This document shows positions 1 to 64,000 of a stretch of DNA of 64,000 bases, in pieces (the first letter of the stretch is position 1; each line of letters opens with the position of its first letter). A model generated the notes under the pieces. That model was not told where the DNA came from, did not search any database, and saw nothing but the letters and a program-made list of their open reading frames with translations. Where the stretch lies: NCBI RefSeq assembly GCF_030408415.1, contig NZ_CP046976.1, forward strand, positions 1,960,372-2,024,371, read 5' to 3'. The translations under genes and the position numbers were made by a program. Source of the stretch: Corynebacterium appendicis CIP 107643 (GTDB taxonomy: Bacteria > Actinomycetota > Actinomycetes > Mycobacteriales > Mycobacteriaceae).

Positions 1-474
1 CTACCGCTTCTTCACGAGCGCCGTCGCCACCGCCGCCCGTCCCTCCCCCGCACCCGTGAAGCCCATGTGGTCCGTTGTCGTCGCTGACACCGACACCGGC
101 GCGCCGAGCGCCTCCGACAGCACCCGCTCCGCCTCCTCGCGCACAGGCCCCATCTTCGGGGTCTGCGCGATCAGCTGCGCCGAGACATTGACCACCTCAA
201 AGCCACGCTTATCGACGAACCCCCTCAGCTCCCCCAGCAACCTCGCCCCCGTCACTCCCTCGTATTCCGGCCGGCCCACACCCACGAAGCTGCCAAGGTC
301 ACCCAACCCCGCCGCAGACAGCACCGCATCCACGATCGCGTGCGAGACCACGTCCCCGTCAGAGTGACCCTCGCACCCCGGTGTGTCCTCGAAGAGCAGG
401 CCCGCGATCCAGCACGGCTTGCCCTCCTCGATCTGGTGGGCATCAAACGCAGTTCCGACGCGCAAATCAGTCAT
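1..474 (-). CDS. ispF: 2-C-methyl-D-erythritol 2,4-cyclodiphosphate synthase
   Basis: Cyclises CDP-methylerythritol 2-phosphate in the non-mevalonate isoprenoid pathway, in the cytoplasm. The 157-aa length is normal for the family. The metal-binding start reads TAFDAHQ, followed by [15 protein letters not shown] and the closing [14 protein letters not shown], all typical IspF blocks. The stop codon lies at the very edge of the window, so the gene is complete. It starts 11 nt after the ispD stop, and carD-ispD-ispF look like one transcript. One CGTCGATAAGC copy lies in it, encoding VDKR. Confidence 0.95.
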
Positions 475-485
475 GCTCCCCGAGA

Positions 486-1265
486 CTAGCTGCCCGGGAC
501 GTCAAAGACCGTCGGCTCCGCCTCTTCCGTGATGCGCTCGGCGAGCACTAGGTCGATCGGGGTGGTGATCTTGAACGCCATCGGGTCGCCCTGCACGGTG
601 GTGACGGGGACACCGAACCACTCCATCAAGCTCGCGTCGTCGGTCGCAGTGAAACCGGGGTGCCCGGCTGCGGGACCTGCCGAAGTTGCGCCCGACGCAG
701 CCGAGCCGACCTGCGCGAAGTATTTCTCGTTGGCTGCGCGCAGGGTGGCCAGGTCGAAGCCCTGCGGCGTCTGCACGGCGCGCAGGGAGGCGCGGTCGGG
801 GGTGCCGAGGACGGTGGAGCCGTCGTCGGAAACTTGCTTGATGGTGTCGGCGACCGGCAGGACAGGTACGACTGCATGGGCCCCGTCCAGGACCGAACGG
901 GCCACACGGGCAATCATTCCGGGCGGGGTGAGGGCACGGGCGGCATCATGGATGAGCACGGTGGCGTCGTCAAGCGAAAGTGCTTGAAGCCCTTCCCACA
1001 CGGAATCCGCGCGTTCCCCCGCGCCGTGGATGAACTGGACGTCGTGGCCGCGCAGCAGGCGGCGAGCGAGCGGCTCCATGTCCGGGCTGACGATCACGCC
1101 GATATGGTCGACGATCTCCGACGTCTCCATCGCCGTGACCGACCGCTCCAGCAGCGAACGTCCGCGCAGCTGCACATACGCCTTCGGGATGTCTGCGCCG
1201 AGCCTCGTTCCGCGCCCGGCGGCGGCGACAAGCGCGACGACCGGGGAGCTAGTCCTCGCTGTCAT
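486..1265 (-). CDS. ispD: 2-C-methyl-D-erythritol 4-phosphate cytidylyltransferase
   Basis: Transfers CMP to methylerythritol 4-phosphate, the step before IspE and IspF. The nucleotide-binding start [14 protein letters not shown] and the middle [14 protein letters not shown] are diagnostic. I chose the ATG at 1265, which overlaps the end of carD by 17 bp and gives 259 aa. The frame is open further upstream to 1352, but that part lies inside carD and adds no family sequence. A short Ala/Gly-rich insert (around residues 195-210) precedes the conserved [12 protein letters not shown] block. Coupled expression with carD is likely. Confidence 0.95.
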
Positions 1266-1842
1266 CGTCGTCGAAGCTAAGGTCGTCGAGGTCGACGTCG
1301 TCCTCAGGATCGAAATCGCCGCTCGGCTTATCGACGAGCCCCTGCTCCACATGCCGCGCGATCACCGCCTGGATCTCCTTCTCCATGCCGTCGGCCTTCT
1401 TCTCGTCCACCGGCTCAGCCAGCGCGAGCTCGCCCACGAGAATCTGGCGGGCCTTGCCAAGCATGCGCTTCTCGCCGGCGGAAAGACCGCGGCCCTGGTC
1501 TCGGCGCCACAGATCGCGCACGACCTCGGCGACCTTGTTGATGTCGCCCGACGCCAGACGCTCCTGGTTCGCCTTGTAACGGCGGGACCAGTTGCCCGCC
1601 TCCTCCACGTCCGTCTCGCGCAGAACCGAGAAGACCTTCCGCAGGCCCTCCTCGCCGACGACGTCGCGGACGCCGACCAGCTCCGCGTTCTTCACCGGCA
1701 CGCGCACCGAAAGGTCCGACTGCAGGATATTCAGGACCAGGAAGTCGAGCTCCTCCCCGCCCATCTCACGCTTTTCAATGTCGGCGATTTTGGCCGCACC
1801 GTGGTGCGGGTAGACGACCACTTCTCCGACTGTGAAATCCAT
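1249..1842 (-). CDS. carD: CarD-family RNA polymerase-binding regulator
   Basis: CarD binds the RNA polymerase beta subunit and stabilises open promoter complexes, notably at rRNA promoters. The N-terminal Tudor-like domain starts [15 protein letters not shown] (residues 1-60). A helical DNA-binding domain follows, containing [17 protein letters not shown]. The extreme C-terminus (about 25 residues) is strongly acidic, [17 protein letters not shown], longer than in mycobacteria. The total of 197 aa is slightly long for the family. The gene heads carD-ispD-ispF, an arrangement shared with Mycobacterium. One CGTCGATAAGC copy encodes VDKP. Confidence 0.95.
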
Positions 1843-1892
1843 GAAGTCTCCTCTTCCGGGTCCTCTTCTTAGGGGATCAAACTAACGTGACG

Positions 1893-2645: not shown

Positions 2646-4172
2646 ATGAAGAAACGCACCGTCCACACGTGCTCCGAGTGCGGCTACTCGTCGCCGAAAT
2701 GGCTCGGCCGCTGCCCAGAATGCGGCGCGTGGGGCACCCTCCAGGAGCAAGCCAGCGCGCCTTCCGCGTCCGCCGCACGACCGGCATCCACGGGACTTAC
2801 CCCCACCAGCGCCGCGCAGCCGATCACGAAAATCGCCGCGAGCGCCGCTTATCGACGCCCCTCCGGCATCTCCGAACTCGACCGCGTCCTCGGCGGCGGC
2901 GTGGTCCCCGGCTCAGTCGTCCTCTTGTCCGGTGAGCCCGGCGTGGGCAAATCCACCCTGCTTCTCGAGGTAGCGAGCCGTTGGGCCGCCGCCTCCGACT
3001 CCGCGTCCGATTCCTCCCCCGCCGCCAGCTCCGAATCACGCGCTGACTCCCCCGCCGCCGGGCGCACCGCGCTGTACGTCACCGCCGAGGAATCCGCCGC
3101 GCAAGTCCGCGGTCGCGCCGAACGCACCGGCGGCCTCAACGACAGGCTCTTCCTCGCCTCGGAGTCGAACTTGGACGTCGTCTTCGGGCACGTCGACGCG
3201 GTGAAGCCGAGCTTGCTCATCGTCGACTCCGTGCAGACCATGCAGGCGCCCGGTGTCGAGGGTGTCGCGGGCGGCGTCGCCCAGTCGCGCGCGGTGACCG
3301 CAGCCCTGACGACCTTGGCGAAGACCACGAACTTGCCGATCCTCCTCGTTGGTCACGTGACCAAGGACGGCAACGTCGCGGGGCCGCGGGTGCTTGAGCA
3401 CTTGGTCGACGTCGTCCTCACCTTCGAAGGCGACCGCCAGACCAGCCTGCGCATGCTGCGGGGCATGAAGAACCGCTTCGGCGCTACCGACGAGGTCGGC
3501 TGTTTCGAGCAGACCTCCGACGGCATCCGCGAGGTGCCGGACCCGTCCGGGCTGTTCCTCTCCCACCGCGGGCAGACACCAGACGGCTCGGCTGTCACCG
3601 TCGCGATGGACGGCGTGCGCCCCATCCTCGCCGAAGTCCAGGCCCTGACCGTCGACCCGGTGAATAAATCGCCGCGTCGCGTCGTCACGGGCCTCGACTT
3701 CAACCGTGTCCCCATGGTCCTCGCTGTCCTTCAAGCGCGGTGCGGGGAAAGGACTAACGACAAGGACGCGTACGTCGCCACCGTCGGCGGCATGCGCATC
3801 ACGGAGACGGCGACAGACCTCGCTGTAGCCCTTGCGACCTGGTCGAGCCTGCACAATCAGCCGCTGCCGCCCAAAACGGTCGTGATCGGCGAGGTGGGGC
3901 TCGCGGGAGAGCTGCGGCGCGTCCCCAACCTGGAGCGCCGGCTCACGGAAGCTGCGCGCCTCGGCTACGAGTACGCGATCGTCCCCGCCGGAAGCGGTAC
4001 ACGCAGCGGCGCGAAGAGCAAGGGAAGTGCAGGGAGCGCAGGTAACGCAGGCAGCCCGAGTACGAAATCAGGTGCGCGCAGCACAGGCAACGGCGCGAGC
4101 ATCCCCGGCATGAGCGTCCGGGAGGTGGGGACGCTGGGGGAGGCGATCGCGTGCGTCGATAAGCGGAAGTAG
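2646..4172 (+). CDS. radA: DNA repair protein RadA (Sms)
   Basis: A RecA-like ATPase that acts as a branch-migration helicase in recombinational repair. In order: a C4 zinc finger (CSECGYSSPKWLGRCPECG, residues 9-27), Walker A GEPGVGKSTLL, the RadA-specific MKNRFGATDEVG motif, and the C-terminal Lon-protease-like fold. Two low-complexity inserts are unusual: a Ser/Ala/Asp run after the Walker region (near residues 118-140) and a Gly/Ser/Lys run near residues 450-485. Two CGTCGATAAGC copies lie in the gene, one as AYRR and one in the last codons (VDKR). It is followed by disA after 12 nt. Confidence 0.95.
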   Translation: MKKRTVHTCSECGYSSPKWLGRCPECGAWGTLQEQASAPSASAARPASTGLTPTSAAQPITKIAASAAYRRPSGISELDRVLGGGVVPGSVVLLSGEPGVGKSTLLLEVASRWAAASDSASDSSPAASSESRADSPAAGRTALYVTAEESAAQVRGRAERTGGLNDRLFLASESNLDVVFGHVDAVKPSLLIVDSVQTMQAPGVEGVAGGVAQSRAVTAALTTLAKTTNLPILLVGHVTKDGNVAGPRVLEHLVDVVLTFEGDRQTSLRMLRGMKNRFGATDEVGCFEQTSDGIREVPDPSGLFLSHRGQTPDGSAVTVAMDGVRPILAEVQALTVDPVNKSPRRVVTGLDFNRVPMVLAVLQARCGERTNDKDAYVATVGGMRITETATDLAVALATWSSLHNQPLPPKTVVIGEVGLAGELRRVPNLERRLTEAARLGYEYAIVPAGSGTRSGAKSKGSAGSAGNAGSPSTKSGARSTGNGASIPGMSVREVGTLGEAIACVDKRK

Positions 4173-4184: not shown

Positions 4185-5225
4185 ATGACCTTCATGCGTG
4201 ACACGCTCCAGCGTCTCGCGCCCGGAACGCAGCTGCGCGACGGGCTTGAGCGCATCAAACGCGGCCACACCGGCGCGCTCATCGTGCTTGGCGACGGCCC
4301 CGAGGTCGCCGACGTGTGTGACGGCGGCATCGAATTCGACGTGCCGTTCACGCCGACACTGCTGCGCGAGCTGTCGAAGATGGACGGCGCCGTCATCTTG
4401 TCCGACGACGCGACCCGCATCACGCGCGCGAACATGCAGCTCGTGCCGTCGCCGTCGTTCCCGACCACCGAAACGGGCACGCGCCACCGCACCGCCGAGC
4501 GCACCGCACTGCATACGGGGGTTCCGGTGGTGTCCGTGTCGGCGTCGATGAATATCGTGACGGTCTACGCCGACGGGAAACGCCACGTCATCGAGGAACC
4601 CGTCGTGCTCATGACGCGCGCACGCCAGGCGATCGCGACGGTGGAGCAGTACCGCTCGCGCGTGGACAAGGCGAACCAGCGTCTCAGCGTCGCGGAAATG
4701 AACCGCTACGCCACCGTCGAGGACGTGCTGCACCTGCTGCAACGCCAGCTTCTCCTGCACCGCGCCGCGCGCGACGTCGACGACCAAATCCTCGAGCTCG
4801 GCGCCGACGCCCGCCAACTCCGCCTCCAGCTCAGCGAACTACGCGGCAGCATCTACCACGACATCGCCATGCTCGTGTGCGATTACGTCGTCGCCGACGG
4901 CGCCCCCAGCAATTCGCTTATCGACGACACCCTCGACCGCCTCTCCCTCCTCCCCGACCCCGAGCTCCTCAACACCTCAGCTCTGGCCAGCGCTTTAGGG
5001 CTGCCCGCCACCGAGGAAAACCTCATGGAGGACGTCACTCCGCGCGGCTACCGCGCCCTGACCCGCATCCCCCGCGTGCAGAAATTCCTCATCGACCACA
5101 TCGTCGCCGAATTCGGCGATCTCGACGCGATCCGTGCCGCCGACCCCGAGCAGCTCGCCACCGCCGAGAACGTCTCGCCGCTGTGGGCGCGCCACATTGT
5201 GGAGGGGCTGCGCCGCCTCGGGTAG
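4185..5225 (+). CDS. disA: diadenylate cyclase DisA (DNA integrity scanning)
   Basis: Makes cyclic di-AMP from two ATP and scans DNA for branched structures as an octamer. The cyclase domain (residues 1-150) shows the DGA motif in SKMDGAVILSDD and the RHR motif in GTRHRTAERTA. A helical linker and a C-terminal helix-hairpin-helix domain (about residues 280-346, RIPRVQKFLIDHI) follow. At 346 aa the length is near the family norm. An alternative ATG lies three codons downstream. The radA-disA pair is conserved in actinobacteria and suggests shared expression. One CGTCGATAAGC copy encodes LID. Confidence 0.95.
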   Translation: MTFMRDTLQRLAPGTQLRDGLERIKRGHTGALIVLGDGPEVADVCDGGIEFDVPFTPTLLRELSKMDGAVILSDDATRITRANMQLVPSPSFPTTETGTRHRTAERTALHTGVPVVSVSASMNIVTVYADGKRHVIEEPVVLMTRARQAIATVEQYRSRVDKANQRLSVAEMNRYATVEDVLHLLQRQLLLHRAARDVDDQILELGADARQLRLQLSELRGSIYHDIAMLVCDYVVADGAPSNSLIDDTLDRLSLLPDPELLNTSALASALGLPATEENLMEDVTPRGYRALTRIPRVQKFLIDHIVAEFGDLDAIRAADPEQLATAENVSPLWARHIVEGLRRLG

Positions 5226-6243: not shown

Positions 6244-6858
6244 CTAACCCGCGAAATGCTCCTGAACGCTTGTGACGCGGCCATCTTCAAGCCTGTATCT
6301 TGCGGCTACGACGCCGAGACTGCCGTCAGCCACCTTGCTCTCCAAGGTCGGGATGCGCGCCATGATGTGCTCGGCGGTCACCTCGGCGTGGACTTCTTCG
6401 ATGCCGGCGCGGTCGTCGCGGCCAGCCCGCTTGGCGGCGAGAACACTCGGTGCGATCTTCTCGACGAACACACGCGTCAGATCCGCCGGCAAGTCCCCCT
6501 CTTCGAACGACGACGCAGCCGCGCCGATCGCGCCGCAGCTCTCGTGGCTCAGCACCACGATCAGCGACACGCCCAGCGACTTCACCGCGTACTCAAGGGA
6601 ACCGGTCACTGCCGCGTCGACGCAGCCGCCGGCGGTGCGGATGACGAAAAGGTCGCCGAGGCCGACGTCGAACAGCATCTCGACCGGCACCCGCGAATCC
6701 GAGCACGCCAGCACAGCGGCGAAGGGGGCTTGGCCGGAGCGGAGCTCGGCGCGTCGATAAGCGTTGGTGTTGGGGTGTTCCGGGCTGTCGCTGGCGAATC
6801 TCGCGTTACCCGCTTCAAGATGCGCCCACGCATCCCGCGGAATCTTCCTGAAAGGCAT
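6244..6858 (-). CDS. beta-class carbonic anhydrase
   Basis: Interconverts CO2 and bicarbonate. The zinc site is visible as ACSDSRVP and, 50-60 residues later, HESCGAIGAA, giving the Cys-His-Cys ligand set. The ATG at 6858 gives MPFRKIP and about 204 aa, normal for the family. An ATG at 6879 is also in frame, but it would overlap the divergent mutY promoter. The mutY start lies only 22 bp away on the other strand. One CGTCGATAAGC copy encodes AYRR. Confidence 0.93.
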   Translation of the reverse strand: MPFRKIPRDAWAHLEAGNARFASDSPEHPNTNAYRRAELRSGQAPFAAVLACSDSRVPVEMLFDVGLGDLFVIRTAGGCVDAAVTGSLEYAVKSLGVSLIVVLSHESCGAIGAAASSFEEGDLPADLTRVFVEKIAPSVLAAKRAGRDDRAGIEEVHAEVTAEHIMARIPTLESKVADGSLGVVAARYRLEDGRVTSVQEHFAG

Positions 6859-8068: not shown

Positions 8069-9433
8069 ATGTTTTGCATTGCTAACCACAGCGTTACCCG
8101 TTCCGTCTTCGCAATCGCAGTGGCCGCACTGACGCTTGTCACCGCATCCCTCGCGCCGCGCTCAACCGCCGGCGCTCAAACTGCAGACGAGCTCCGCAAC
8201 GGCATCCACCACGCCGCGACGACGCCTGGCGGCGACCCGGTGCACCGCAACGACCCGTTCTACGACGACCCGGTCCCCGCCGCCGAGCTAGACCGTCCGG
8301 GCGAGATTGTGCGCGCACAGCCCGCGCCGCATCTGCTGAATATTCTCGGCCCGGATTTCTACGGCCACGCGAAGCGGATCATCTACACCTCCACGACGGT
8401 CAACGGCGACATCGTGCCGGTCAGCGGGGCGATCATCGAGCCGGCGAATCCGTGGCGCGGGAAGGGGCCCCGCCCAACGGTCGTGTTTGGGCCGGGAACG
8501 CGAGGGGCGGGGGATGCATGTGCGCCGTCGAGGGGCGCGTGGATGATGGGCAAGGTCGACCTGAAAACTGGCGCGGTGGGCACCAACTACGAGCTGCCGA
8601 GCTACCATGCAGCTGCTTTGCTTGGCATGCGGGTTGTCGTCACTGATTACATCGGTTTGGGCACGCGTGGCGCACACACCTATGTGTTGCATGAAGAGGA
8701 GGCCAACGCCATGCTCGATGCCGCCCGCTCCACTGCCCCACCCGGGCACCCAGTGGGTTTTTGGGGATATTCGCAGGGCGGCGGTGCGGCTGCTGCGGCA
8801 GCGGAGCGCGCCTCCACGTACGCTCCCGATGTGAATGTGAAGGCGACGTTCGCGGGAGCCCCGCCGGCTGATCTCTTAGCGACGATGCGCGGAGTGGACA
8901 ATTCCACCATCACCGCAGTTCTCGGTTACGCATTGAGTGGTTGGAAGGAACGCTACCCAGAACTAGGCCCTTCGCTCGAGCCTATCTTGAATAATTCCGG
9001 CCGCGAGTTCCTGGCTTCGGTCGCCACCGAATGCATTGCGGATAGTGCGGTTCGTTGGGGTATGAGCGATTCCCGGGCTTTCACCACTAACGGGAGGAGC
9101 ATCAGCGAGGTCGTCGCAAAGCACCCTGAGTTGCACGCGCTTATCGACGCCCAAAAGCTCGGACGCACCTCCCCCTCCTCCCCCATCATGATCACGACCG
9201 CCGGTAACGACGATGTGGTCCCCTCGGACCAAGTCGTCCAGCTCGCCCGCGACCACTGCGCACTCGGCGCTGATGTCTCCTTCTACGACGGAGCCCTGCC
9301 TCCGCTTACTCCAGGGATCAAAAGCGGCGTCAACCATGCCATCGGCGTGTACGCTCACCTCGCTCCTTCAATGATGTGGATGATGGACCGTTTCAACGGC
9401 GTCCCCAACCAATCCAACTGCGGCACTTTCTAG
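8069..9433 (+). CDS. secreted lipase, LIP family
   Basis: An alpha/beta-hydrolase of the secretory lipase family, likely acting on acylglycerols outside the cell. A signal peptide (residues 1-37, ending near STAGAQT) precedes the mature enzyme. The nucleophile elbow is GYSQGG; the acid Asp is likely in TTAGNDDVVP and the His in GVNHAIG, in the right order. The 454-aa length fits corynebacterial and mycobacterial members. It stands alone with its own promoter and faces clpC tail to tail. One CGTCGATAAGC copy encodes LID. Confidence 0.9.
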   Translation: MFCIANHSVTRSVFAIAVAALTLVTASLAPRSTAGAQTADELRNGIHHAATTPGGDPVHRNDPFYDDPVPAAELDRPGEIVRAQPAPHLLNILGPDFYGHAKRIIYTSTTVNGDIVPVSGAIIEPANPWRGKGPRPTVVFGPGTRGAGDACAPSRGAWMMGKVDLKTGAVGTNYELPSYHAAALLGMRVVVTDYIGLGTRGAHTYVLHEEEANAMLDAARSTAPPGHPVGFWGYSQGGGAAAAAAERASTYAPDVNVKATFAGAPPADLLATMRGVDNSTITAVLGYALSGWKERYPELGPSLEPILNNSGREFLASVATECIADSAVRWGMSDSRAFTTNGRSISEVVAKHPELHALIDAQKLGRTSPSSPIMITTAGNDDVVPSDQVVQLARDHCALGADVSFYDGALPPLTPGIKSGVNHAIGVYAHLAPSMMWMMDRFNGVPNQSNCGTF

Positions 9434-12520: not shown

Positions 12521-12531
12521 CGTCGATAAGC
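12521..12531 (+). repeat. CGTCGATAAGC element, intergenic copy
   Basis: A copy of the dispersed 11-mer between clpC and the carbamoyltransferase, preceded directly by a G-rich tract (GGGGGGTGGGAG). Confidence 0.9.
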
Positions 12532-12575: not shown

Positions 12576-13565
12576 ATGCCTATCAGCCTGTCCGGCCGCA
12601 ATTTTCTGAAGCTGCTCGATTTCACGCCCGAGGAGATCCGCTACCTGATCGACCTGTCGCGGCAATTCAAGAACCTCAAGCTCGCGGGCACGCCGCACAA
12701 GTACCTCGAGGGCAAGAACATCGTGCTGCTGTTCGAGAAAACATCGACGCGCACGCGCTGCTCGTTCGAAGTCGCCGGGCACGACCTCGGCATGGGCGTG
12801 ACCTACCTCGATCCGGGCTCGTCGCAGATGGGTAAGAAGGAATCCATCGCCGACACCGCCCGTGTGCTGGGCCGCATGTTCGACGGCATCGAGTACCGCG
12901 GCTACGGCCAGGAGATCGTCGAGGAGCTCGGCGCGAATGCCGGCGTCCCCGTCTGGAACGGTCTGACCACCGAATTCCACCCCACCCAAATGATCGCCGA
13001 CATGCTCACCATCGAGGAGAACTTCCCGCAGGGGCTACGCGGCCTGAAACTCGTCTACATGGGCGATGCGCGCAACAACGTCGCCAATTCGCTCATGGTC
13101 GCGTGCGCGAAGCTCGGCATCCACTTCGTCGCCTGCGGGCCGAAGGAGCTCATGCCAGAGCAATCGCTTATCGACGCCTGCGCCTCCCTCCCCTCCTCCG
13201 CCCCCATCACCCTCACCGAGAATGTCGACGAAGCCGTCGCCGGCGCCCACGTCATCTACACCGACATCTGGGTCTCCATGGGTGAACCCGACGACATCTG
13301 GGAAGAGCGCATCCGGATTCTCGAGCCCTACCGCGTCACCAGCTCCGTCATGGCCAAAGCCGCCTCCAACGCCATCTTCATGCACTGCCTGCCGTCGTAC
13401 CACGACACCGAGACCACCATCGGCGCCGACATCGCTGAAAAGTTCGGCATCACCGAAATGGAAGTCACCAACGAAGTCTTCGAATCAGCCCAGTCGAAGG
13501 TCTTCGACGAGGCTGAAAACCGCATGCACACGATCAAGGCGATCATGTACGCGACGCTCTCGTAA
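12576..13565 (+). CDS. argF: ornithine carbamoyltransferase, catabolic-like
   Basis: Interconverts ornithine plus carbamoyl phosphate and citrulline. The carbamoyl-phosphate site EKTSTRTRCSFE, the HPTQ motif and HCLPSYHD (usually HCLPAFHD) are present, and the 329-aa length is right. Stretches such as SSQMGKKESIADTARVLGRM and YRGYGQEIVEEL are closer to catabolic ArcB than to the shorter anabolic ArgF. No arginine deiminase, carbamate kinase or arginine biosynthesis gene lies nearby, so its role here is open. A good ribosome site (AAAAGGAG) precedes the ATG. Confidence 0.9.
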   Translation: MPISLSGRNFLKLLDFTPEEIRYLIDLSRQFKNLKLAGTPHKYLEGKNIVLLFEKTSTRTRCSFEVAGHDLGMGVTYLDPGSSQMGKKESIADTARVLGRMFDGIEYRGYGQEIVEELGANAGVPVWNGLTTEFHPTQMIADMLTIEENFPQGLRGLKLVYMGDARNNVANSLMVACAKLGIHFVACGPKELMPEQSLIDACASLPSSAPITLTENVDEAVAGAHVIYTDIWVSMGEPDDIWEERIRILEPYRVTSSVMAKAASNAIFMHCLPSYHDTETTIGADIAEKFGITEMEVTNEVFESAQSKVFDEAENRMHTIKAIMYATLS

Positions 13566-21115: not shown

Positions 21116-21126
21116 CGTCGATAAGC
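21116..21126 (+). repeat. CGTCGATAAGC element, intergenic copy
   Basis: A copy of the dispersed 11-mer just after the lipoprotein gene, preceded by a G-rich tract (GGGGTGAAGGGGTGGG). Confidence 0.9.
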
Positions 21127-42969: not shown

Positions 42970-42980
42970 GCTTATCGACG
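42970..42980 (-). repeat. CGTCGATAAGC element, intergenic copy
   Basis: A copy of the dispersed 11-mer between ppk2 and the porin genes, followed on the plus strand by a strong C tract (CCCCCCCACCCCCC). Confidence 0.9.
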
Positions 42981-43922: not shown

Positions 43923-43933
43923 CGTCGATAAGC
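43923..43933 (+). repeat. CGTCGATAAGC element, intergenic copy
   Basis: A copy of the dispersed 11-mer between the groEL stop (43946) and its terminator, preceded by G-rich sequence. Confidence 0.9.
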
Positions 43934-47944: not shown

Positions 47945-47955
47945 CGTCGATAAGC
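47945..47955 (+). repeat. CGTCGATAAGC element, intergenic copy
   Basis: A copy of the dispersed 11-mer 8 bp beyond the stop of the small membrane-protein frame; AGGGG lies 17 bp before it. Confidence 0.9.
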
Positions 47956-48451: not shown

Positions 48452-49837
48452 ATGAGCACTTTTGAACCGAACCGCGAACGGATTTTCAACGACCTTTCCG
48501 CACTCGTGTCCTTCAATTCGCCCCACTCCGTGCCGGAGCTCGCCGAGCAGCACGCCGGCGCCGCCGACTGGGTCGCAAGCGCCTTGGCCGAGCGCGGCCT
48601 CGAGGTCGAGCGCCACGCCACCGTGGACAACGCCGACGCGATCATCGCCCGCAAGCACGTCAGCGACGACGCCCCGACCGTCCTCCTTTACTCCCACTAC
48701 GACGTCGTCCCGGCCGGCGACCCGGCAGCCTGGACCGCGGACCCGTTCACGCTCACCGAGCGCGACGGCCGCTGGTACGGCCGCGGCGCCGCCGACTGCA
48801 AGGGCAACGTCGCGATGCACCTTGAGGCACTTCGGCTTATCGACGAAGCCGGCGGCACCGACGCCAACCTCGTCGTCCTCGTCGAGGGCTCCGAGGAGCT
48901 CGGCGGCGGTGGTCTGGAGAATCTGATCGAGGAGAAGCCGGAACTGTTCGCAGCCGACATCATTCTCATCGCCGACTCCGGCAACGTCACCGTGGGCACC
49001 CCGACCCTGACCACCGCTCTGCGCGGCGGCGCCCAGCTCAAGGTCACGGTGGAGACCCTCCGCGGCGCCATCCACTCCGGCACCTTCGGCGGCCCCGCCC
49101 CGGACCCGGTCGCCGCCCTCATCCGCACGCTCGATTCGCTCCGCGACGAGACTGGCCGCACCACCATCGACGGCCTGGGCGACGCCCTTTCCGCCACCTG
49201 GCCCGGTCAGCCCTACGACACCGAAGCCTTCCGCAAGGACGCCGGCGTCCTCGACGGCGTCTCCCTCATGGGCGACATCGACTCTGGCGGCGAGAACGCC
49301 GCCGACATGGTGTGGGCCCGCCCCGCCGTCACCGTCATTGGCTTCACCTCCACCCCGGTCGACGAGGCCGTCAACGCCATCATCCCCCGCGCCGAAGCCC
49401 AGCTGAACCTCCGCGTCCCCGCTGGCATGGACCCCGCCGCGGCCGCCGAGGCCCTGAAGAAGCACATCATCGACCACACCCCCTGGGGCGCCAAGGTCGA
49501 GGTGGAGATCTTCGACGTCAACCACGGCTTCGCTACCGACCCGTCCCGCCCGGCCATCGCCCTCCTCGGCGAGTGCCTCGAGGAGGCGTACAAGGAGGCA
49601 CCCGCTTCCGCCGCCCCCGGCGGCGTGTCCAACGACCTCGTTTCCGTCGGTTCCGGCGGCTCCATCCCCCTGACCGCCAAGCTGCAGGAGCACTACCCCG
49701 ACGCCGCCATCGCCATGTACGGCGTCGAGGACAACAACGCCGGCATCCACTCCGTCGACGAGTCCGTGCACCCGTTCGAGATCGAGCGCGTGGCCGTCGC
49801 CGAGGCGAAGTTCCTCCAGCGTGTCACCTCGCTGTAA
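48452..49837 (+). CDS. M20-family dipeptidase/metallopeptidase
   Basis: A zinc-dependent peptidase of 461 aa, probably cytoplasmic. Metal ligands appear in LLYSHYDVVP (His, Asp), GRGAADCKGN (Asp), EGSEELGG (Glu-Glu) and near the end GVEDNNAGIHSVDE (His). A dimerisation domain fills the middle (about residues 190-340). The substrate may be a dipeptide; DapE activity is less likely because the characteristic residues differ. One CGTCGATAAGC copy encodes LID. Element D follows as its terminator. Confidence 0.9.
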   Translation: MSTFEPNRERIFNDLSALVSFNSPHSVPELAEQHAGAADWVASALAERGLEVERHATVDNADAIIARKHVSDDAPTVLLYSHYDVVPAGDPAAWTADPFTLTERDGRWYGRGAADCKGNVAMHLEALRLIDEAGGTDANLVVLVEGSEELGGGGLENLIEEKPELFAADIILIADSGNVTVGTPTLTTALRGGAQLKVTVETLRGAIHSGTFGGPAPDPVAALIRTLDSLRDETGRTTIDGLGDALSATWPGQPYDTEAFRKDAGVLDGVSLMGDIDSGGENAADMVWARPAVTVIGFTSTPVDEAVNAIIPRAEAQLNLRVPAGMDPAAAAEALKKHIIDHTPWGAKVEVEIFDVNHGFATDPSRPAIALLGECLEEAYKEAPASAAPGGVSNDLVSVGSGGSIPLTAKLQEHYPDAAIAMYGVEDNNAGIHSVDESVHPFEIERVAVAEAKFLQRVTSL

Positions 49838-51138: not shown

Positions 51139-54100
51139 GTGATCACCCTGCTTCTGGCGCTGATCGCCGCCGCAGCAGCAGCACCGCCATTGCTGCGGAC
51201 GTTTGGGCGTCCGGCATTCGGCCTGCTAGCGCTCGTGCCGGGGCTGGGTTTCGGGTGGCTGGTCTACCAGTTCGCGAACGGCACGTTCAAAGACGGCGGC
51301 GAAATCCAGGCGGCGTATCCCTGGATGCCGGGAATGCACCTCAACCTCGAATTCCGGCTCGACGCGTACGCGGGGCTGTTCGGCCTGATCATCCTGGGCG
51401 TTGGCGCGCTGGTGCTCTTGTACTGCTGGGGGTATTTCAACTCGAACCCGCGGCGGCTGAGCATTTTCGGCGCGGAGCTGACTATGTTCGCGATGGCGAT
51501 GTACGGCCTGGTCATCGCAGACAACTTCCTGATGATGTACATCTTCTGGGAAATCACCTCGGTGCTGTCGTTCCTGCTGGTCTCCTACTACGGCGAACGG
51601 GCGTCGTCGCGCAGGGCGGCGACGCAGGCGCTGTTGGTCACCACGTTCGGCGGACTGGCGATGCTTGTGGGGCTCATTCTCTTCGGCACGCAGACTGGGG
51701 CGTGGAAGATCTCGCAGATCGCCGGAATGACGGATCTGGACCAGATCACGGGCATCACCGCGGCAATCACGCTGATCTTGCTGGGCGCGCTGACGAAGTC
51801 GGCGCAAGCCCCGTTTCACTTCTGGCTCCCGGGTGCGATGGCGGCGCCGACACCGGTGTCGGCATACCTGCACTCCGCTGCCATGGTGAAGGCAGGCATC
51901 TATCTGGTGGGGCGGTTGGCGCCGGACTTCGCGTCGATAAGCGTGTGGCACATTGTGGTGCTGCCTGCCGGCGTGTTCACGATGCTGCTTGGCGGCTGGA
52001 TGGCGCTCAAGCAGCGCGATCTCAAGCTGATTCTCGCCTACGGCACGGTCTCGCAGCTGGGGTTCATGACGGCGGTCGTGGGCGTGGGTTCGCGCGAGGC
52101 GACCATGGCGGGGCTCGCATTGGTCTTCGCGCACTCGCTGTTCAAGGCGGCGCTGTTCATGATCGTCGGCGCGATCGACCACACCTCAGGAACTCGCGAT
52201 ATCCGTGAGCTGTCGGGCCTGGGACGCAAGGAACCGCTGGTCGCCGTGCTGGCGGCGATCGCGGCGGCGTCGATGGCGGGCATCCCGCCACTGTGGGGCT
52301 TCGTCGCGAAGGAAGCGGTGCTCGAAGCCACGCTCCACGAGGAGCTGTTGTACGGCATGCCGCGCAACGTGCTACTCGTAGGTTTCGTGCTCGGCTCCGT
52401 GCTGACCATGACGTATTCGCTGTACTTCCTGTGGGGCGCGTTCGCGCGCAAACCGGGAAAGGAAATGCGCGCAGAGCTTATCGACGGCACCTCCCCCGCC
52501 GTCCGCGACATGCACCCCATCGAATTCCTGCAGTGGGCTCCCCCTGCGGTCCTCGTGCTGCTCACAGTGGTCTTCGGTCTCGTGCCGGCGCCGCTGTCGA
52601 ACCTGTTCAACCAGTACCTGAACGTGCGGTTCCCGGAGGCCGAGCACCAGGACTTGGCGCTGTGGCACGGCGTCACGATCCCGCTGGGCCTGAGTGCCGT
52701 GATCATCGCGGCCGGCGCGGTGATGTTCTGGCAGCGCGAGGTAGTCAAAAAGGCGCAGTTCGAACGACCCGCCCTGGGCGATGCGGATGCGCTATGGGAC
52801 AACATGCTGATAGTGCTGCGGCAGGCGTCGCTACGCCTGACGGCGTCGACTCAGCGCGGTTCGCTGACCATCAACCTCGCGGTGATTTTCAGCGTGCTCA
52901 TGGTAGTTCCGCTGGGTGCGCTGCTCTTCGGAGATAGCGCGGACACGCACATGATCCTGTGGGATAACCCTTGGCAAGGCATGACAGTGGTCGTGATCGC
53001 TAGCGCCGCCGTGGCAGCGACCGTGATCCGGAATCGTCTGTCGCTGATCATTCTGGTCGGGCTCACCGGCTACGGCTCGGCGGTGCTCTTCGCGCTGCAC
53101 GGCGCCCCGGACTTGGCGCTGACGCAGGTGCTGGTGGAGACCCTGGTGATGGTCGTGTTCATGCTGGTCCTGCGCAAGCTTCCCACCGAGATCGACGTGA
53201 AGAAGGACGCCGACGTGCGCATGCGCGCGTGGCTGTCGGTGGGAACAGGCCTGTCCGTCGTCGTGGTCGCGATGGCGGCGATGTCCGCGCGCATGCGCGA
53301 GCCGATTTCGAAGCTCATGCCGGACCTCGCCTACGAGATCGGCCACGGCCGCAATACCGTGAACGTTCTGCTCGTGGACCTGCGCGCGACGGACACCCTG
53401 GGCGAGATCAGCGTGCTGGTCATCGCCGCGACCGGCGTGGCCAGCCTGATCTACCGCACCGAATCCTTCACCCGCGACTCGCGCCGCCCGACGCTGTCCG
53501 CGCGCCGCCCGCGCTGGCTCGCCTCGGGCGTGGAGGGCGAGAAGGCCCAAAACCGCTCGATCATGGTCGACGTGGTCACCCGCCTGCTCTTCCCGGCCAT
53601 GGTGCTGCTTTCCGCCTACTTCTTCTTCTCCGGCCACAACTCCCCCGGTGGTGGCTTCGCCGGTGGCCTAGTCATGGGGCTTGCTCTCACGCTGCGCTAC
53701 CTGGCCGGCGGCCGCGACGAGCTGGAGGAGGCACTGCCGGTCGACCCGTCGAAACTGCTCGGCACCGGTCTGCTGCTCTCCGGAGCGGCAGCCGTCATCC
53801 CAATGTTCCTCGGCCACCCGCCGCTTGCCAGCGGCTACATCGAGCCGGAGCTTCCGCTCATCGGGACCGTCACGGTGCCGTCGGCGCTGCTTTTCGATGC
53901 TGGCGTCTACACCATCGTCATCGGCCTGGTCATGCACATCCTCACCTCACTCGGCAGCCAGATCGACCGCGAAGAGGACCAGCGTAAGGAACGCGCCCGC
54001 GACCGTGCCCGCGCCCTGCAGCGCAAGAACGAGGAGCGCAAGCGCGCCCGCGAAGAGAACGCCCGGCAGCGAGCGGCGGAGCGTGCCGAGCAACGCTCGG

Positions 54101-54276
54101 CGGAGCAACGCGCCGCCGAGCGGTCCTCCGAGCAGGCGGCCGAGCGCATCGCGCAGCGGGTCTCCCAGCGCTCATCGCAAAGACGGTCGCAGAGTTCCGG
54201 CTCCACCAGGCTGAAAGAGCATGAGGGCGGGACGGATGTCGTCGATAAGCGTGCTGAAAATGGAAGGGAGGCGTGA
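51139..54276 (+). CDS. mrpA: Mrp Na+/H+ antiporter subunit A fused to B
   Basis: The largest subunit of the multi-protein cation/proton antiporter, related to complex I NuoL. A GTG start with GGGAGGG 10 nt upstream gives 1045 aa. The N-terminal half has NuoL-like helices (KSAQAPFHFWLPGAMAAPTP). The second half carries the MrpB-type domain with FSGHNSPGGGFAGGL. The last roughly 90 residues are an Arg/Glu/Ala/Gln coil not seen in typical MrpA. Three CGTCGATAAGC copies lie in it (SIS, LID, VDKR). Confidence 0.95.
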   Translation: MITLLLALIAAAAAAPPLLRTFGRPAFGLLALVPGLGFGWLVYQFANGTFKDGGEIQAAYPWMPGMHLNLEFRLDAYAGLFGLIILGVGALVLLYCWGYFNSNPRRLSIFGAELTMFAMAMYGLVIADNFLMMYIFWEITSVLSFLLVSYYGERASSRRAATQALLVTTFGGLAMLVGLILFGTQTGAWKISQIAGMTDLDQITGITAAITLILLGALTKSAQAPFHFWLPGAMAAPTPVSAYLHSAAMVKAGIYLVGRLAPDFASISVWHIVVLPAGVFTMLLGGWMALKQRDLKLILAYGTVSQLGFMTAVVGVGSREATMAGLALVFAHSLFKAALFMIVGAIDHTSGTRDIRELSGLGRKEPLVAVLAAIAAASMAGIPPLWGFVAKEAVLEATLHEELLYGMPRNVLLVGFVLGSVLTMTYSLYFLWGAFARKPGKEMRAELIDGTSPAVRDMHPIEFLQWAPPAVLVLLTVVFGLVPAPLSNLFNQYLNVRFPEAEHQDLALWHGVTIPLGLSAVIIAAGAVMFWQREVVKKAQFERPALGDADALWDNMLIVLRQASLRLTASTQRGSLTINLAVIFSVLMVVPLGALLFGDSADTHMILWDNPWQGMTVVVIASAAVAATVIRNRLSLIILVGLTGYGSAVLFALHGAPDLALTQVLVETLVMVVFMLVLRKLPTEIDVKKDADVRMRAWLSVGTGLSVVVVAMAAMSARMREPISKLMPDLAYEIGHGRNTVNVLLVDLRATDTLGEISVLVIAATGVASLIYRTESFTRDSRRPTLSARRPRWLASGVEGEKAQNRSIMVDVVTRLLFPAMVLLSAYFFFSGHNSPGGGFAGGLVMGLALTLRYLAGGRDELEEALPVDPSKLLGTGLLLSGAAAVIPMFLGHPPLASGYIEPELPLIGTVTVPSALLFDAGVYTIVIGLVMHILTSLGSQIDREEDQRKERARDRARALQRKNEERKRAREENARQRAAERAEQRSAEQRAAERSSEQAAERIAQRVSQRSSQRRSQSSGSTRLKEHEGGTDVVDKRAENGREA

Positions 54277-56586: not shown

Positions 56587-57146
56587 TTCCCGATAACCTC
56601 CCCTCGCCGCGCCTGACGTCGGCCGGCAGTCTCTCCGACCGCTTCCGCCCCTGGTTCATCTTCTGGATGACGCTCATGTGGATCCTGCTCATGGGCGAGA
56701 TCACCTGGGCGAATGTTGTCGCCGGGGCTGGCCTGGGATTGGCAATCACGATGCTGCTGCCCCTGCCGAAGCTGCCCACCGGCGGCGTGAGCGTGAACCT
56801 GCCGAAGCTGGTCGTGTTCCTCATCCGGTGGGTGGGCGAACTCCTCGTCGCGGCGGTCCAGGTGTCGTGGTTGGCGATCCGCCCGGCGGGCCCGCCCAAA
56901 AGCGCGATCTTCAAAGTCCCGATGCGTCTCAATTCCGAGCTGGTGCTCTACTTCGCCACGTGCGCCTACAACCTCCAGCCCGGCGGCTGCGTCACCGATA
57001 TCGACCTGGCGAACCGCACGTGGACCATCCACGTCCTGTCCGCGGGGACGCAGAAGGATGTGGAGAAGGCGCTGGCGGACGTCGATAAGCTTGAGCGCTC
57101 GATGATCGCTATTTTTGAGAAGAGAAAGGCCCACAAACATGGATGA
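56583..57146 (+). CDS. mrpE: Mrp antiporter subunit E
   Basis: A small membrane subunit needed for full antiporter activity; 187 aa. Two to three helices (FIFWMTLMWILLMGEITW, LVVFLIRWVGELLVAAVQV) and a soluble C-terminal domain with TDIDLANRTWTIHVL. It overlaps mrpD by 4 bp. One CGTCGATAAGC copy encodes VDKL. Confidence 0.93.
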   Translation: MIPDNLPSPRLTSAGSLSDRFRPWFIFWMTLMWILLMGEITWANVVAGAGLGLAITMLLPLPKLPTGGVSVNLPKLVVFLIRWVGELLVAAVQVSWLAIRPAGPPKSAIFKVPMRLNSELVLYFATCAYNLQPGGCVTDIDLANRTWTIHVLSAGTQKDVEKALADVDKLERSMIAIFEKRKAHKHG

Positions 57147-60970: not shown

Positions 60971-60977
60971 GAACCGC

Positions 60978-61541
60978 ATGATCCGACCGATTGTCATTTA
61001 CGGCGACCCTGTCCTGCATACCCCGACTGAACCGGTGACGGAGCCGATCGAGGAGCTGCAGGAGCTCATTGCGGACATGCACGAGACGATGGACGCGGCG
61101 CACGGGGTGGGGCTAGCGGCGAACCAGATTGGCGTCGATAAGCGGCTGTTCGTCTACCACTGCCCGGACGGCGACACGATGCGCCGCGGCACGGTGATCA
61201 ATCCGGTGCTGGAGACTAGCGAGATCCCGAAGACGATGCCGAGCGAGGACGACGACGAAGGCTGCCTGTCCGTCCCGGGCGAGTCCTTCCCCACCGGCCG
61301 CGCGGACTGGGCGAAGGTGACGGGCCTGGACGAGAACGGCAACGAGATCGAGGTCGAGGGCGCCGGTTTCTTCGCGCGCTGCCTGCAGCATGAGGTCGGC
61401 CACCTCGACGGGTACGTCTACCTGGATGTCCTCACCGGACGCTACAAGCGTGAGGCCAAGCGCGCGATCAAGCGCAACGGTTGGGACCACGCGGGCAACA
61501 CGTGGCTGCCGGGCACGGACCCCGACCCGTTCGGCCACTAG
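60978..61541 (+). CDS. def: peptide deformylase
   Basis: Removes formyl groups from new proteins. The three motifs are [20 protein letters not shown] and QHEVGHLDG (the usual HExDH has Gly here). 187 aa. Leaderless start as judged by the -10 box 7 nt upstream. One CGTCGATAAGC copy encodes VDKR directly after the first motif. Confidence 0.95.
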
Positions 61542-62548
61542 TGTTCCGTAAAGAACCGGTCAGCCCCGGCGACCGCGTCGTCGTCCGCCGCAGGCACGGC
61601 AACCACGCCACAGACGTCATCGGGCACGTGGTCACGCTCGACCCGCTCGTCGTCCGCCCGCAGAAAGTTGGTGGCCTCCCATCGGACGCGGAGGCGATCC
61701 GCATCGACGAACCGATCGTCGTCCGCCGCCTCAGCCCGCGCCGCATCCGCAACAGCGACATCCGCGCCGTCGAGACCGCCACGGCCCGCGCGTTCCCCGG
61801 CCAAGAGCATTCGCTTATCGACGCCTGGCTTGCCCGCTCCGGCTCCTCCATCACCGAACGCTCTAATTCCGCTACCCCGATCGGGCACTCGGCCAGCCTG
61901 CAGCCGGTGCCGATCGACAAGATTGGGCAGTTCTACCGCGAACGCAGGATGCCGGTGCGGTTGCTGATCCCGGAGCGCATCGGCAAGCCGGCTCTCCACT
62001 TGGTCGAACGAAATCCGAACGCTTGGGAGCTCGGCCCGGAGATCATCACGATGACCCGGTCGCTCGAGGATCTCGGGGACCTACCCGCCTCCAAGCCCGA
62101 CGTAGAATTCCGCATCGACACAGAGCCCGACGACGCCTGGCTGGACATGTACCACTTCCGCGGCCGTCCGCTGCCGCCGGAAGCGCTCGCGGAGCTGGCA
62201 GAGGAGATCGACGGGGAGCTCGGCTTCGGCCGCCTGCTCGCGCACGCCCGCGAGCCCGACGAGCACACCATCGCGATCACACGCGGCACCATCACCTCGT
62301 CCGATGACGGACGCGTCTGGCTCGGCTACTCCGCCGTCGAGGTCGCGCCGGACTACCGCCGCCAAGGCCTCGGCATCGCGCTCGGCGAGCACATGCTCCA
62401 CTGGGGAGCCTCCCGCGGCGCGACCAACGCCTACCTGCAAGTCCTCGCCACCAACGACGCCGGGATCGGGCTGTACGACAAGCTCGGATTCATCGAGCAC
62501 CACCGCCACCGCTACGCCACCCTGAAACTCGAGGGTGATCTAGGGTAG
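61541..62548 (+). CDS. GNAT-family N-acetyltransferase
   Basis: A GTG start that shares one base with the def stop gives 335 aa. The first 70 residues form a small beta domain (SPGDRVVVRRRHG), a linker with one CGTCGATAAGC copy (LID) follows, and the C-terminal GNAT fold shows the acetyl-CoA loop EVAPDYRRQGLGIALGEH and LQVLATNDAGIGLYDKLGF. The substrate is unknown; coupling with def suggests housekeeping. Confidence 0.85.
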   Translation: MFRKEPVSPGDRVVVRRRHGNHATDVIGHVVTLDPLVVRPQKVGGLPSDAEAIRIDEPIVVRRLSPRRIRNSDIRAVETATARAFPGQEHSLIDAWLARSGSSITERSNSATPIGHSASLQPVPIDKIGQFYRERRMPVRLLIPERIGKPALHLVERNPNAWELGPEIITMTRSLEDLGDLPASKPDVEFRIDTEPDDAWLDMYHFRGRPLPPEALAELAEEIDGELGFGRLLAHAREPDEHTIAITRGTITSSDDGRVWLGYSAVEVAPDYRRQGLGIALGEHMLHWGASRGATNAYLQVLATNDAGIGLYDKLGFIEHHRHRYATLKLEGDLG

Positions 62549-62553
62549 AGCGC

Positions 62554-63336
62554 ATGCGGATTGCCACGTGGAACATCAACTCGGTGCGTACGCGCGTCGA
62601 CCGCGCCGTCGCGTTTCTGGAGCGCAACGACATCGACGTCCTGGCTATGCAGGAAACCAAGTGCGCGGACGACAAATTCCCGTACTCGGCGTTCGAGGCG
62701 GCGGGCTACGAGGTCGCCCACGTCGGCTACCACCAGTGGAACGGTGTCGCGCTGATTTCGCGCGTGGGCCTGGACAATGTCAGAGACCACTTCCCCAACC
62801 AGCCGCGCTTCCACAAAGATCCTGAAAAACCGCAAGAACGAGAGGCACGAGCAGTCGGCGCCACCTGCGGCGGGGTGGACATCTGGAGCCTGTACGTCCC
62901 CAACGGCCGCGAGATCGGCGACCGCCACTACGACTACAAGCTCGAGTTCCTGTGGCGCCTCGCCGAGGCCGTCGAGCCGGGTACTCCGCAGGTCTTCTGC
63001 GGCGACTACAACATCGCCCCGACCGACAAGGACGTGTGGGACCGCGCCTTCTTCGAAGGCAAGACGCACGTCACGGAGCCGGAGCGTGCGGCCTTCGACA
63101 ACCTCCTCGAATCCGGGCTCGCTCCCATTAAGCACGAGGACCCGTATTCATATTGGGATTACAAGGCCATGCGCTTCCAAAAGAATGAAGGCATGCTCAT
63201 CGATTTCCAGTTGACGGGAATGGAGGCAGGGGGGTTCGTCGATAAGCATGAGCGCGAAGGCAAGGGCGCTTCTGACCACGCACCCGTCGTCGCGGACTAC
63301 GACGTGACGCGCGTGCTTATCGACGACGTCCGATGA
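62554..63336 (+). CDS. xthA: exodeoxyribonuclease III (AP endonuclease)
   Basis: Cuts DNA at abasic sites in base-excision repair. MRIATWNINSVRTRVDR, LAMQETKCADDKFP, FCGDYNIAPTDKDVW and GASDHAPVVADY carry the metal and catalytic residues. 260 aa. It follows the acetyltransferase by 5 nt and overlaps cls by 4 bp. Two CGTCGATAAGC copies in opposite orientation lie 78 bp apart in its last 100 bp (VDKH, LID), outside the catalytic motifs. Confidence 0.96.
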   Translation: MRIATWNINSVRTRVDRAVAFLERNDIDVLAMQETKCADDKFPYSAFEAAGYEVAHVGYHQWNGVALISRVGLDNVRDHFPNQPRFHKDPEKPQEREARAVGATCGGVDIWSLYVPNGREIGDRHYDYKLEFLWRLAEAVEPGTPQVFCGDYNIAPTDKDVWDRAFFEGKTHVTEPERAAFDNLLESGLAPIKHEDPYSYWDYKAMRFQKNEGMLIDFQLTGMEAGGFVDKHEREGKGASDHAPVVADYDVTRVLIDDVR

Positions 63337-64000
63337 TCCCCGACCTTTCCACCTGGCAACTGATCCTGATGATCGTGGATTACACGATCAAATTCGCCGT
63401 GATCGGTGTCATCCCCGAAAACCGCAAACCGTCCAGCGCGAACGCATGGCTGCTGGTCATCCTCCTGATCCCGTTCATCGGCCTGCCGCTGTATTTCTTC
63501 TTCGGTTCGACGTATCTCTCGCGGCGGCGCCACCGCATCCAAAAAGAAGCGCACAACGAGATCAACGACGTCCACGCCGAATTCCCCGACGTGCCCGACA
63601 GCGTGCGACTCTCCGGCGACGTCGCGTCGATGGCGCACCTCAACCGCACGCTCACCGGGTACCCCGCGCTCGAAGGCCACGCGAAAGCGCTGTGGACCGA
63701 CTACCAAAAGACAATGCTGCGCATCGCCGAGCTTATCGACGCCTCCACCTCCCACGTCCACATCGAAATCTACGCCCAAGCCTGGGACACCACGACAGCC
63801 CCCGTGTTCGAGGCAATGGAGCGCGCCGTTTCCCGCGGCGTGAAAGTCCGTGTGCTTTTCGACCACATCGGCTCCCAGAAATACCCCGGCTTCCGCGCGT
63901 TCAAGCGCAAGCTCACCGCCGCCGGCATCGAGTGGAACCTCATGCTTCCCCTGCTGCCGCTGCAGTGGCGCTTCCGCCGGCCCGACCTGCGCAACCACCG
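63333..64000 (+). CDS. cls: cardiolipin synthase, partial
   Basis: A membrane phospholipase-D-type enzyme that joins phosphatidylglycerols. Two N-terminal helices (LILMIVDYTIKFAVIGVI, WLLVILLIPFIGLPLYFFF) and the start of the PLD domain (HVHIEIYAQAWDTTTAPVFE, VKVRVLFDHIGSQKYPGF) are seen. The window ends just before the expected first HxK motif (at LRNHR), so the remaining half is not visible. The ATG overlaps the xthA stop by 4 bp. One CGTCGATAAGC copy encodes LID. Confidence 0.92.
   Translation, partial: MIPDLSTWQLILMIVDYTIKFAVIGVIPENRKPSSANAWLLVILLIPFIGLPLYFFFGSTYLSRRRHRIQKEAHNEINDVHAEFPDVPDSVRLSGDVASMAHLNRTLTGYPALEGHAKALWTDYQKTMLRIAELIDASTSHVHIEIYAQAWDTTTAPVFEAMERAVSRGVKVRVLFDHIGSQKYPGFRAFKRKLTAAGIEWNLMLPLLPLQWRFRRPDLRNH

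Follow-up and report, generated by a model that had tools for sequence, protein, structure and literature searches.

The question raised by this locus is why a single 11-nt word recurs so often, on both strands, in DNA that carries unrelated genes. The window examined here, which is the whole stretch of 64,000 nt analysed from Corynebacterium appendicis CIP 107643, corresponds to positions 1960372–2024371 of the genome (a single contig of 2,284,440 bases) and contained 35 exact copies of CGTCGATAAGC spread over 207..63741, 16 on the plus strand and 19 on the minus strand, compared with 0.01 on average in 100 dinucleotide-shuffled sequences. This count confirmed the dense 11-mer described in a first-pass annotation of the window. 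The word proved to be the core of a polar element of approximately 44 bp, composed of 33 G-rich and C-poor nt followed by C-R-T-C-G-n-n-A-A-G-C, which is present in hundreds to approximately 2000 copies in 148 of 201 Corynebacterium genomes. To judge from the sequence evidence, the element is probably an uptake-sequence-like self-recognition signal that is kept by biased DNA uptake and that arose independently of the Gram-negative ones.

Over the whole genome, CGTCGATAAGC occurred 585 times (282 plus, 303 minus), compared with a single occurrence of its reversed pattern, which served as the control; the frequency claimed for the window is therefore far above chance genome-wide as well. One copy was found per 3.9 kb of the genome and one per 1.8 kb of the window, the latter being about twofold denser. 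In a 504-kb sample of the same genome, the word was the most over-represented of all words of 8–12 nt, with 151 copies seen and 2.2 expected under a fourth-order Markov model, and when it was relaxed to CRTCGNNAAGC, 1387 copies were present in the genome, or one per 1.6 kb. According to a simple gene caller written for this analysis, 115 of the 151 sampled copies were genic, 34 lay between genes, and 2 lay on gene edges. As suggested earlier, the word is thus spread over unrelated genes and intergenic DNA, and because 78.4% of the DNA was called genic, the 34 intergenic copies indicate no preference for intergenic DNA. With dnaA located at the contig start and the terminus assumed to lie halfway, the orientation of the copies in the 504-kb sample relative to the replichores was 152 versus 155.

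In all 35 window copies, G outnumbered C over the 33 nt located 5′ of the core (on average 17.7 to 5.3, and 13 to 10 in the weakest copy), indicating that the element is approximately 44 bp long and polar. The earlier statement that the word is not part of a longer repeat was therefore correct in that there was no longer exact repeat, but it missed the G-rich, C-poor 5′ flank carried by every copy in the window. Among the 151 sampled copies, the mean excess of G over C (G−C) in the flank was 10.2, compared with 0.05 (standard deviation, 4.5) in random 33-mers, and G exceeded C in 97% of them. No comparable bias was found on the 3′ side, apart from a preference for G as the first base beyond the core (67 of 133 copies). 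When the gene was co-oriented with the element (32 copies), the frequency of G at third codon positions from −33 to −4 was 0.59–0.72, with a gene average of 0.35; when the gene was opposed to it (51 copies), the G excess of the flank again fell on third codon positions (0.69–0.85, versus 0.49 for C in genes), and the excess was also found in 30 copies between called genes. The excess of G at synonymous sites on either gene strand, and between genes, indicates a property of the element rather than of codon use.

In a 464-kb sample, 133 exact copies and 108 copies with a single mismatch were found (14 in total for the reversed word), and 72 of the 108 mismatches fell at core positions 6 and 7, identifying these as loose positions. 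Taken as an independent readout, the mean flank G−C was 10.2 beside exact cores, 6.7 beside CGTCGNNAAGC with other middles, 1.5 when position 8 was changed, and 0.3 when position 3 was changed. Because the flank fades on average with core mismatches and is present at synonymous and intergenic sites, flank and core behave as one unit. The window itself contained 25 variants of CGTCGNNAAGC in which NN was not AT; in 20 of these, G outnumbered C in the flank. When words preceded by G-rich, C-poor DNA were sought without reference to the known core, the same word emerged (TCGATAAG, z 26.6). A G-quadruplex was rejected as an essential part of the element: a four-run G3 pattern occurred in 11 of the 151 flanks (0.06% of random 33-mers), an enrichment that is not general.

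When the window was aligned with the genomes of relatives, the word was preserved more often than the surrounding sequence. In G035 (86.4% identity), 17 of the 23 aligned sites were identical, compared with 27.5% of neighbouring 11-mers, and 3 more differed at positions 6–7 alone. The corresponding values were 8 of 16 (control 11-mers, 10%) in G162 (79% identity), 3 of 9 (6%) in G149 (76% identity), 2 of 6 (11%) in G122, 1 of 6 (6%) in G178, and 4 of 4 (40%) in G071, with 0 of 7 (5%) in G041, in which the word is rare (approximately threefold over the control). These fractions cover aligned sites, the remainder of the 35 being unaligned (12 in G035, 19 in G162, 26 in G149, 29 in G122, 29 in G178, 31 in G071, and 28 in G041). 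Of 36 non-identical window sites, 29 aligned without gaps and 7 with gaps, and in the reverse comparison, starting from the sites of the relatives, 12 of 19 were gap-free and 7 gapped. This predominance of gap-free alignments indicates that the word has been gained and lost mainly by substitution.

Among the 201 Corynebacterium genomes, exact copies numbered 0–13 in 65 genomes, 14–35 in 5, and at least 36 in 131. The relaxed word exceeded its reversed control at least fivefold in 148 genomes (word-rich), less than 2.5-fold in 46 (word-free), and by intermediate factors in 7; the median relaxed count was 1162, compared with 83 for the control, and the highest was 2032. Across 140 genomes from the same family but from 30 genera other than Corynebacterium, the ratio peaked at 2.7 (genus g5) and was mostly close to 1; a small excess, approximately twice the reversed control and up to 2.7, was seen in genera g5, g20, and g23 (e.g., in genomes G297 and G315). 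Twenty whole genomes were traced through named loci. Twelve of these were word-rich (Corynebacterium sp. Marseille-P3884, p3-SID1145, C. meitnerae, C. tuscaniense, C. glaucum, C. riegelii, C. mucifaciens, C. minutissimum, C. propinquum, C. pseudodiphtheriticum, C. lipophiloflavum, and C. oculi), the first being the closest named relative of C. appendicis by TopA (94%). Six were near background (C. jeikeium Cj47444, C. dentalis, C. spheniscorum, C. kalidii, Dietzia aurantiaca, and Mycolicibacterium brisbanense), and two, C. pygosceleis and C. uropygiale, were approximately threefold over the control. In C. lubricantis, a single 23-kb locus contained 16 relaxed copies.

Sampled genomes that were poor in exact copies used other spellings, or dialects, of the word: CATCGGCAAGC in G006 and G053, CATCGACAAGC and CATCGATAAGC in G111, CATCGNCAAGC in G144, and CGTCGTCAAT and CGTCGGAAA in G048. 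The locus L123 preferred CGTCGGNAAGC, with G-N in the middle, a form that may be shared by G113, G164, and G175, in which 2–4 exact copies but 1812–1973 relaxed copies were found, 56–72 of them of the CA type. In G006, G053, G111, G144, and G048, the dialect words kept the G-rich 5′ flank from approximately −33 to −1, most weakly in G111 (0.34–0.38 versus 0.28); two unrelated abundant words were without it. The spelling CATCGNNAAGC made up the majority of the above-background count in 13 genomes, comprising 11 of the 148 and the intermediates G073 and G084. G143 was mixed, with 1337 of its 1689 relaxed copies of the CA type and the remainder of the CG type, and is perhaps in the middle of a dialect change. 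On a DEAD helicase tree of 86 loci, the labels CG, CA, and NEG were clustered (14 changes, compared with a shuffled mean of 29.3), yet several switches were evident. This tree omits loci without a DEAD protein of >500 aa and L226, L208, L200, L202, L203, and L211 (taken as the same as the named L113, L128, L108, L109, L110, and L125), and it labels C. pygosceleis and C. uropygiale as NEG despite their approximately threefold excess. Sister clades differed in dialect (G006/G105/G153, CA; G004/G093/G199, CG), and word-rich genomes had word-free neighbours (G143/G014, C. oculi/zg-331, and TAE3-ERU12/G039).

Samples from part of the word-free genomes were scanned for words, gapped words, and flanks, and no convincing substitute word emerged. 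Some minor signals were noted. GGCGTCA was weakly raised in C. jeikeium loci. In samples of G152 (L036–L040 and L073), GCGTCG occurred 130 times with a weak G-rich 5′ flank (z 5.8) and no clear continuation, and could be a decayed or degenerate form. In G128 and G147 (L058–L065, L079, and L080), CGGCGTCC/GGACGCCG were over-represented 2–3-fold without a marked G-rich flank. G133 (L041–L045) contained a repeated palindrome, ATGCACGTGCAT (8 counts, both strands), together with GCCCGGCTTCGG.

Within the genome of C. appendicis, the word was nearly absent from some DNA: 2 of 20 sampled 20-kb stretches were without an exact copy and contained 1 and 2 relaxed copies, compared with approximately 11.6 expected. 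One of them (L011, 800001–820000 of the genome) carries genes for a relaxase, an rve transposase, a heavy-metal ATPase, and a pyridine nucleotide-disulfide reductase, and the other (L014, 1100001–1120000) carries genes for an MFS transporter, an amidohydrolase, and a PabAB-like chorismate enzyme. L014 also showed a strong GC skew and near-identical starts of ABC-transporter proteins near both ends. A word that is dense, strand-balanced, kept in position, built mainly by substitution, loose at two positions, nearly missing from two sampled regions, and spelled differently among lineages follows the pattern of an uptake sequence. The likeness to uptake sequences first proposed from the density, length, and strand balance in the window is thus strengthened by the genus-wide density, the strand balance in the whole genome, the preservation at orthologous positions, the two loose core positions, the scarcity of the word in two sampled regions, and the dialects.

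If the element acts in this way, a putative receptor for DNA on the cell surface, perhaps one of the minor pilins or an accessory protein of the Tad/Flp pilus encoded beside topA, would bind it on free duplex DNA; DNA bearing it would enter the cell more often, be converted to single strands at ComEA/ComEC, and then recombine. Biased uptake would spread the word through the population, and accumulation would proceed mainly by substitution where the sequence tolerates it (molecular drive). A shift in the specificity of the receptor would cause the genome to drift to a new dialect, and a loss of the uptake bias would let the words decay. The C. appendicis genome has comEA, the product of which carries a helix-hairpin-helix domain, as well as comEC and, next to topA, a Tad/Flp-type cluster; a Flp-like pilin, a T2SSE ATPase, and a T2SSF protein are also encoded. 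The names TadZ, TadB, TadE, and TadF rest on gene position and similarity rather than on Pfam matches. Transformation of the actinobacterium Micrococcus luteus requires tad genes and comEC, and the combination of tad with comEA/comEC is described as common in Actinobacteria (PMC4322843). We lean, if only narrowly, towards the wider proposal that most Corynebacterium species exchange DNA self-selectively across the mycomembrane through a Tad/Flp pilus, with a bipartite polar signal of independent origin, species dialects, and a receptor of an undescribed type, and that a switch of dialect impedes the exchange of genes between sister species.

Several results weigh against uptake as the explanation. 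Codon-atypical genes were not poorer in sites but rather richer (0.73 per kb, compared with 0.48–0.53 in the three most typical fifths), so that a general depletion from foreign DNA is no more than a lead. AT-middle copies altered solely at position 8 (n = 5; G−C, 9.4) or position 11 (n = 8; 6.6) retained the G-rich flank, indicating that not every core base is strictly required. ComEC was present in all 201 genomes, the word-free ones included; its presence is therefore not discriminating, and the word loss expected to accompany comEC loss was not seen. Nor was the expected loss with the tad genes clean, since word-free genomes often keep them: G014, G152, and C. meridianum, all word-free, and C. 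uropygiale, in which the word is weakly raised, gave matches to TadZ, TadA, TadC, Flp, TadE, and TadF. A T2SSE best match at E ≤1e−47, a cut-off picked after the values were seen, was found in 138 of the 148 word-rich, 4 of the 7 intermediate, and 13 of the 46 word-free genomes, but this association with the word is confounded by phylogeny. Alignment columns separating CA from CG dialects, compared without loci in state NEG or MIX, were in no clear excess in the Tad proteins (Flp, TadE, TadF, TadZ, TadA, TadB, and TadC) relative to DEAD helicase and TopA (TadE, 1 of 99; TadF, 0 of 107; TadA, 6 of 375; TadB, 4 of 259; TopA, 10 of 968; DEAD helicase, 5 of 780). Finally, TadE, TadF, Flp, and ComEA of C. 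appendicis are acidic.

Between sister clades of unlike dialect, the Tad proteins differed at 11–26% of columns (TadF the most), compared with 7–8% in DEAD and TopA, a difference for which faster evolution alone would suffice. The length and domains of ComEC were also considered as a difference between word-rich and word-free genomes and were rejected: among the matches listed, the frames appeared by eye to be longer in word-free genomes, but nine ComEC proteins (two of them from word-free genomes) did not split cleanly. A ComEC of 531 aa at L067:9441-11033 was listed by Pfam with the Competence domain alone, without a metallo-beta-lactamase domain.

Comparison with known abundant words helps to place the element. 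The DNA uptake sequences (DUS) of Neisseriaceae come in dialects that share an invariant core and vary at a few positions around it (PMC3630211), and the Corynebacterium word is likewise a dispersed, short, non-palindromic word with hundreds or thousands of copies and dialects that vary at a few positions. Its copies are sparser (585 exact and 1387 relaxed in C. appendicis, compared with approximately 1900 10-mers in meningococci; PMC3630211). In contrast to DUS, its sequence is unrelated, it has a 33-nt G-rich flank on one side, it is not enriched between genes, and it occurs in Actinomycetota alongside a Tad/Flp-type pilus, with no counterpart of the ComP receptor identified. In the uptake signal sequences (USS) of Pasteurellaceae, the flank consists of A/T tracts. 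Like USS, the element joins a short core to a compositional flank, although the flank here is G-rich and 5′, the core is unrelated, and the two loose positions lie within the core. Single-mismatch copies are fewer than exact ones in both, with 764 and 1471, respectively, for the USS of H. influenzae (PMC1939737). DNA taken up by H. influenzae has been recovered and sequenced (PMC7811141). The architecture imparting sequences (AIMS), which are over-represented on leading strands (PMC3164646), and the FtsK orienting polar sequences (KOPS) are G-rich octamers and in this respect resemble the flank; an actinobacterial AIMS octamer (PMC3164646) occurred inside 15 of the 151 flanks (random 33-mers, 0.5%), and these two G-rich signals may coincide in part. 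Unlike AIMS, the element has a fixed core beside its G tract and no leading-strand excess. The HIP1 word of cyanobacteria, a very abundant short palindrome without a polar flank, is similar in abundance, whereas the present word is non-palindromic and has a polar flank.

Other forms of uptake selectivity exist, for example in Campylobacter. Uptake selective for abundant genomic words appears, in the literature consulted, to be a matter of Neisseriaceae and Pasteurellaceae (PMC1939737; PMC7811141). No earlier description of such an element in Corynebacterium was found in the literature searched, in which most subscription journals and bioRxiv are not represented; one study that screened many genomes for motifs reports CRISPR-derived patterns for three Corynebacterium species (PMC5217627). 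If the proposal of biased uptake is correct, it would add an independent example from Actinomycetota, and the natural variation among its many species would allow tests of whether uptake sequences evolve by drive or selection, of how dialects change, and of the passage of DNA across the mycomembrane. It would also predict naturally transformable Corynebacterium species and provide a means of studying gene flow among the skin commensals, industrial strains, and pathogens of the genus.

Of the competing explanations, the one that survives best, though we consider it unlikely, is a chromosome-organising or nucleoid-protein site, through which a DNA-binding protein would anchor along the chromosome. 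The genome-wide spread and the strong preservation of the sites would suit this function, as would the spacing in the window, which was slightly more even than random (coefficient of variation, 0.73; 3.3% of random draws were as even, and 5.7% for relaxed copies). However, essential segregation or architecture sites must change jointly with their protein, and the near absence of the word from two sampled regions and the change or loss of dialects among related species are unlike such sites; a replichore bias (152:155) is also absent. A Chi-like recombination hotspot, read by an end-processing helicase-nuclease, would account for the polarity, the one-sided G richness, the frequency, and the preservation of the element, but it is improbable: RecC was found in none of the 201 Corynebacterium genomes, in a search that was positive in E. 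coli alone among 14 control genomes, there is no leading-strand bias, and known Chi sites are short. The first two of these results speak against RecBCD-Chi; AdnAB, an alternative actinobacterial end-processing machine, was not searched for. Similarly, a KOPS or AIMS function was rejected for lack of origin-to-terminus polarity and a HIP1-type word because CGTCGATAAGC differs from its own complement, so that the first-pass annotation was right in regarding Chi, KOPS, and HIP1 as unfit.

A recognition site for a duplex DNA translocase (TraB-like), which would move chromosomal DNA between cells without pilus-based uptake, would also result in self-biased transfer and drive, and FtsK/TraB-type domains do recognise short sites; we nevertheless regard it as very improbable; KOPS-type replichore polarity is absent, and no search aimed at such a translocase was made. 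It is hardly credible that the copies are DnaA-box-like titration sites: the complement GCTTATCGACG resembles TTATC(C/A)A(C/A)A and fits the DnaA box quoted in PMC3164646 at 7 of 9 positions, but two mismatches remain in the dialect of C. appendicis, and other dialects (e.g., GCTTGCCGATG) lose the likeness while keeping density and flank, for which reason this candidate was rejected. Equally implausible, and already contradicted, is an origin of the word in codon usage, in a protein motif common to the genes, or in a mobile repeat: 97 of the 115 genic copies do lie in one frame per strand (VDK in sense, 37; LID in antisense, 60), but five of the six frame/orientation classes are occupied and there are intergenic copies, so that no protein motif explains the word, and the flank at synonymous sites, the single reversed-control copy, and the predominance of in-place substitution also argue against these origins.

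The individual copies in the window are given below with strand and with the G/C counts of the 33-nt flank. The first two copies, at 207..217 (minus; 21/3) and 1326..1336 (minus; 17/7), are followed by two in a radA-like gene (AAA_25 plus Zn ribbon) at 2847..2857 (minus; 17/6) and 4154..4164 (plus; 20/5), one in a disA-like gene at 4916..4926 (minus; 21/3), and one at 6752..6762 (plus; 18/8). Genes for a secretory lipase (9139..9149, minus; 19/4), a ClpC-like protein (12521..12531, plus; 17/6), a carbamoyltransferase (OTCace; 13166..13176, minus; 22/3), and a PEP-utilising enzyme (16235..16245, plus; 18/10) carry one copy each. Two copies lie in a PRD/CAT antiterminator-like gene (17113..17123, minus; 22/5, and 17292..17302, minus; 18/4) and two in a PTS EIIABC gene (18788..18798, plus; 19/3, and 20174..20184, minus; 18/1). 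Next come 21116..21126 (plus; 18/1), 26173..26183 (plus; 18/6), 28185..28195 (minus; 21/6), and 30078..30088 (minus; 13/7); the last of these and the copy in an ftsH-like gene at 31450..31460 (plus; 19/6) are identical in G071, G035, G162, and G149. These are followed by 33930..33940 (minus; 21/2), 38787..38797 (plus; 22/6), and 38940..38950 (minus; 15/8), which is identical in G035, G162, G178, and G122.

In the remainder of the window, one copy lies in a PPK2 gene at 42970..42980 (minus; 18/2), two lie at 43923..43933 (plus; 19/4) and 47945..47955 (plus; 13/10), and one lies in an M20 peptidase gene at 48835..48845 (minus; 15/9). An Mrp-type antiporter gene holds three, at 51932..51942 (plus; 14/8), 52476..52486 (minus; 19/6), and 54240..54250 (plus; 15/5). 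The copies at 57080..57090 (plus; 16/5) and 61133..61143 (plus; 16/7) precede one in a GNAT acetyltransferase gene at 61813..61823 (minus; 17/7), two in an endonuclease/exonuclease/phosphatase-family gene at 63237..63247 (plus; 15/4) and 63315..63325 (minus; 14/6), and the last, at 63731..63741 (minus; 16/3). An example of a variant copy is CGTCGACAAGC at 35097..35107 on the plus strand, the flank of which contains 20 G and 4 C.

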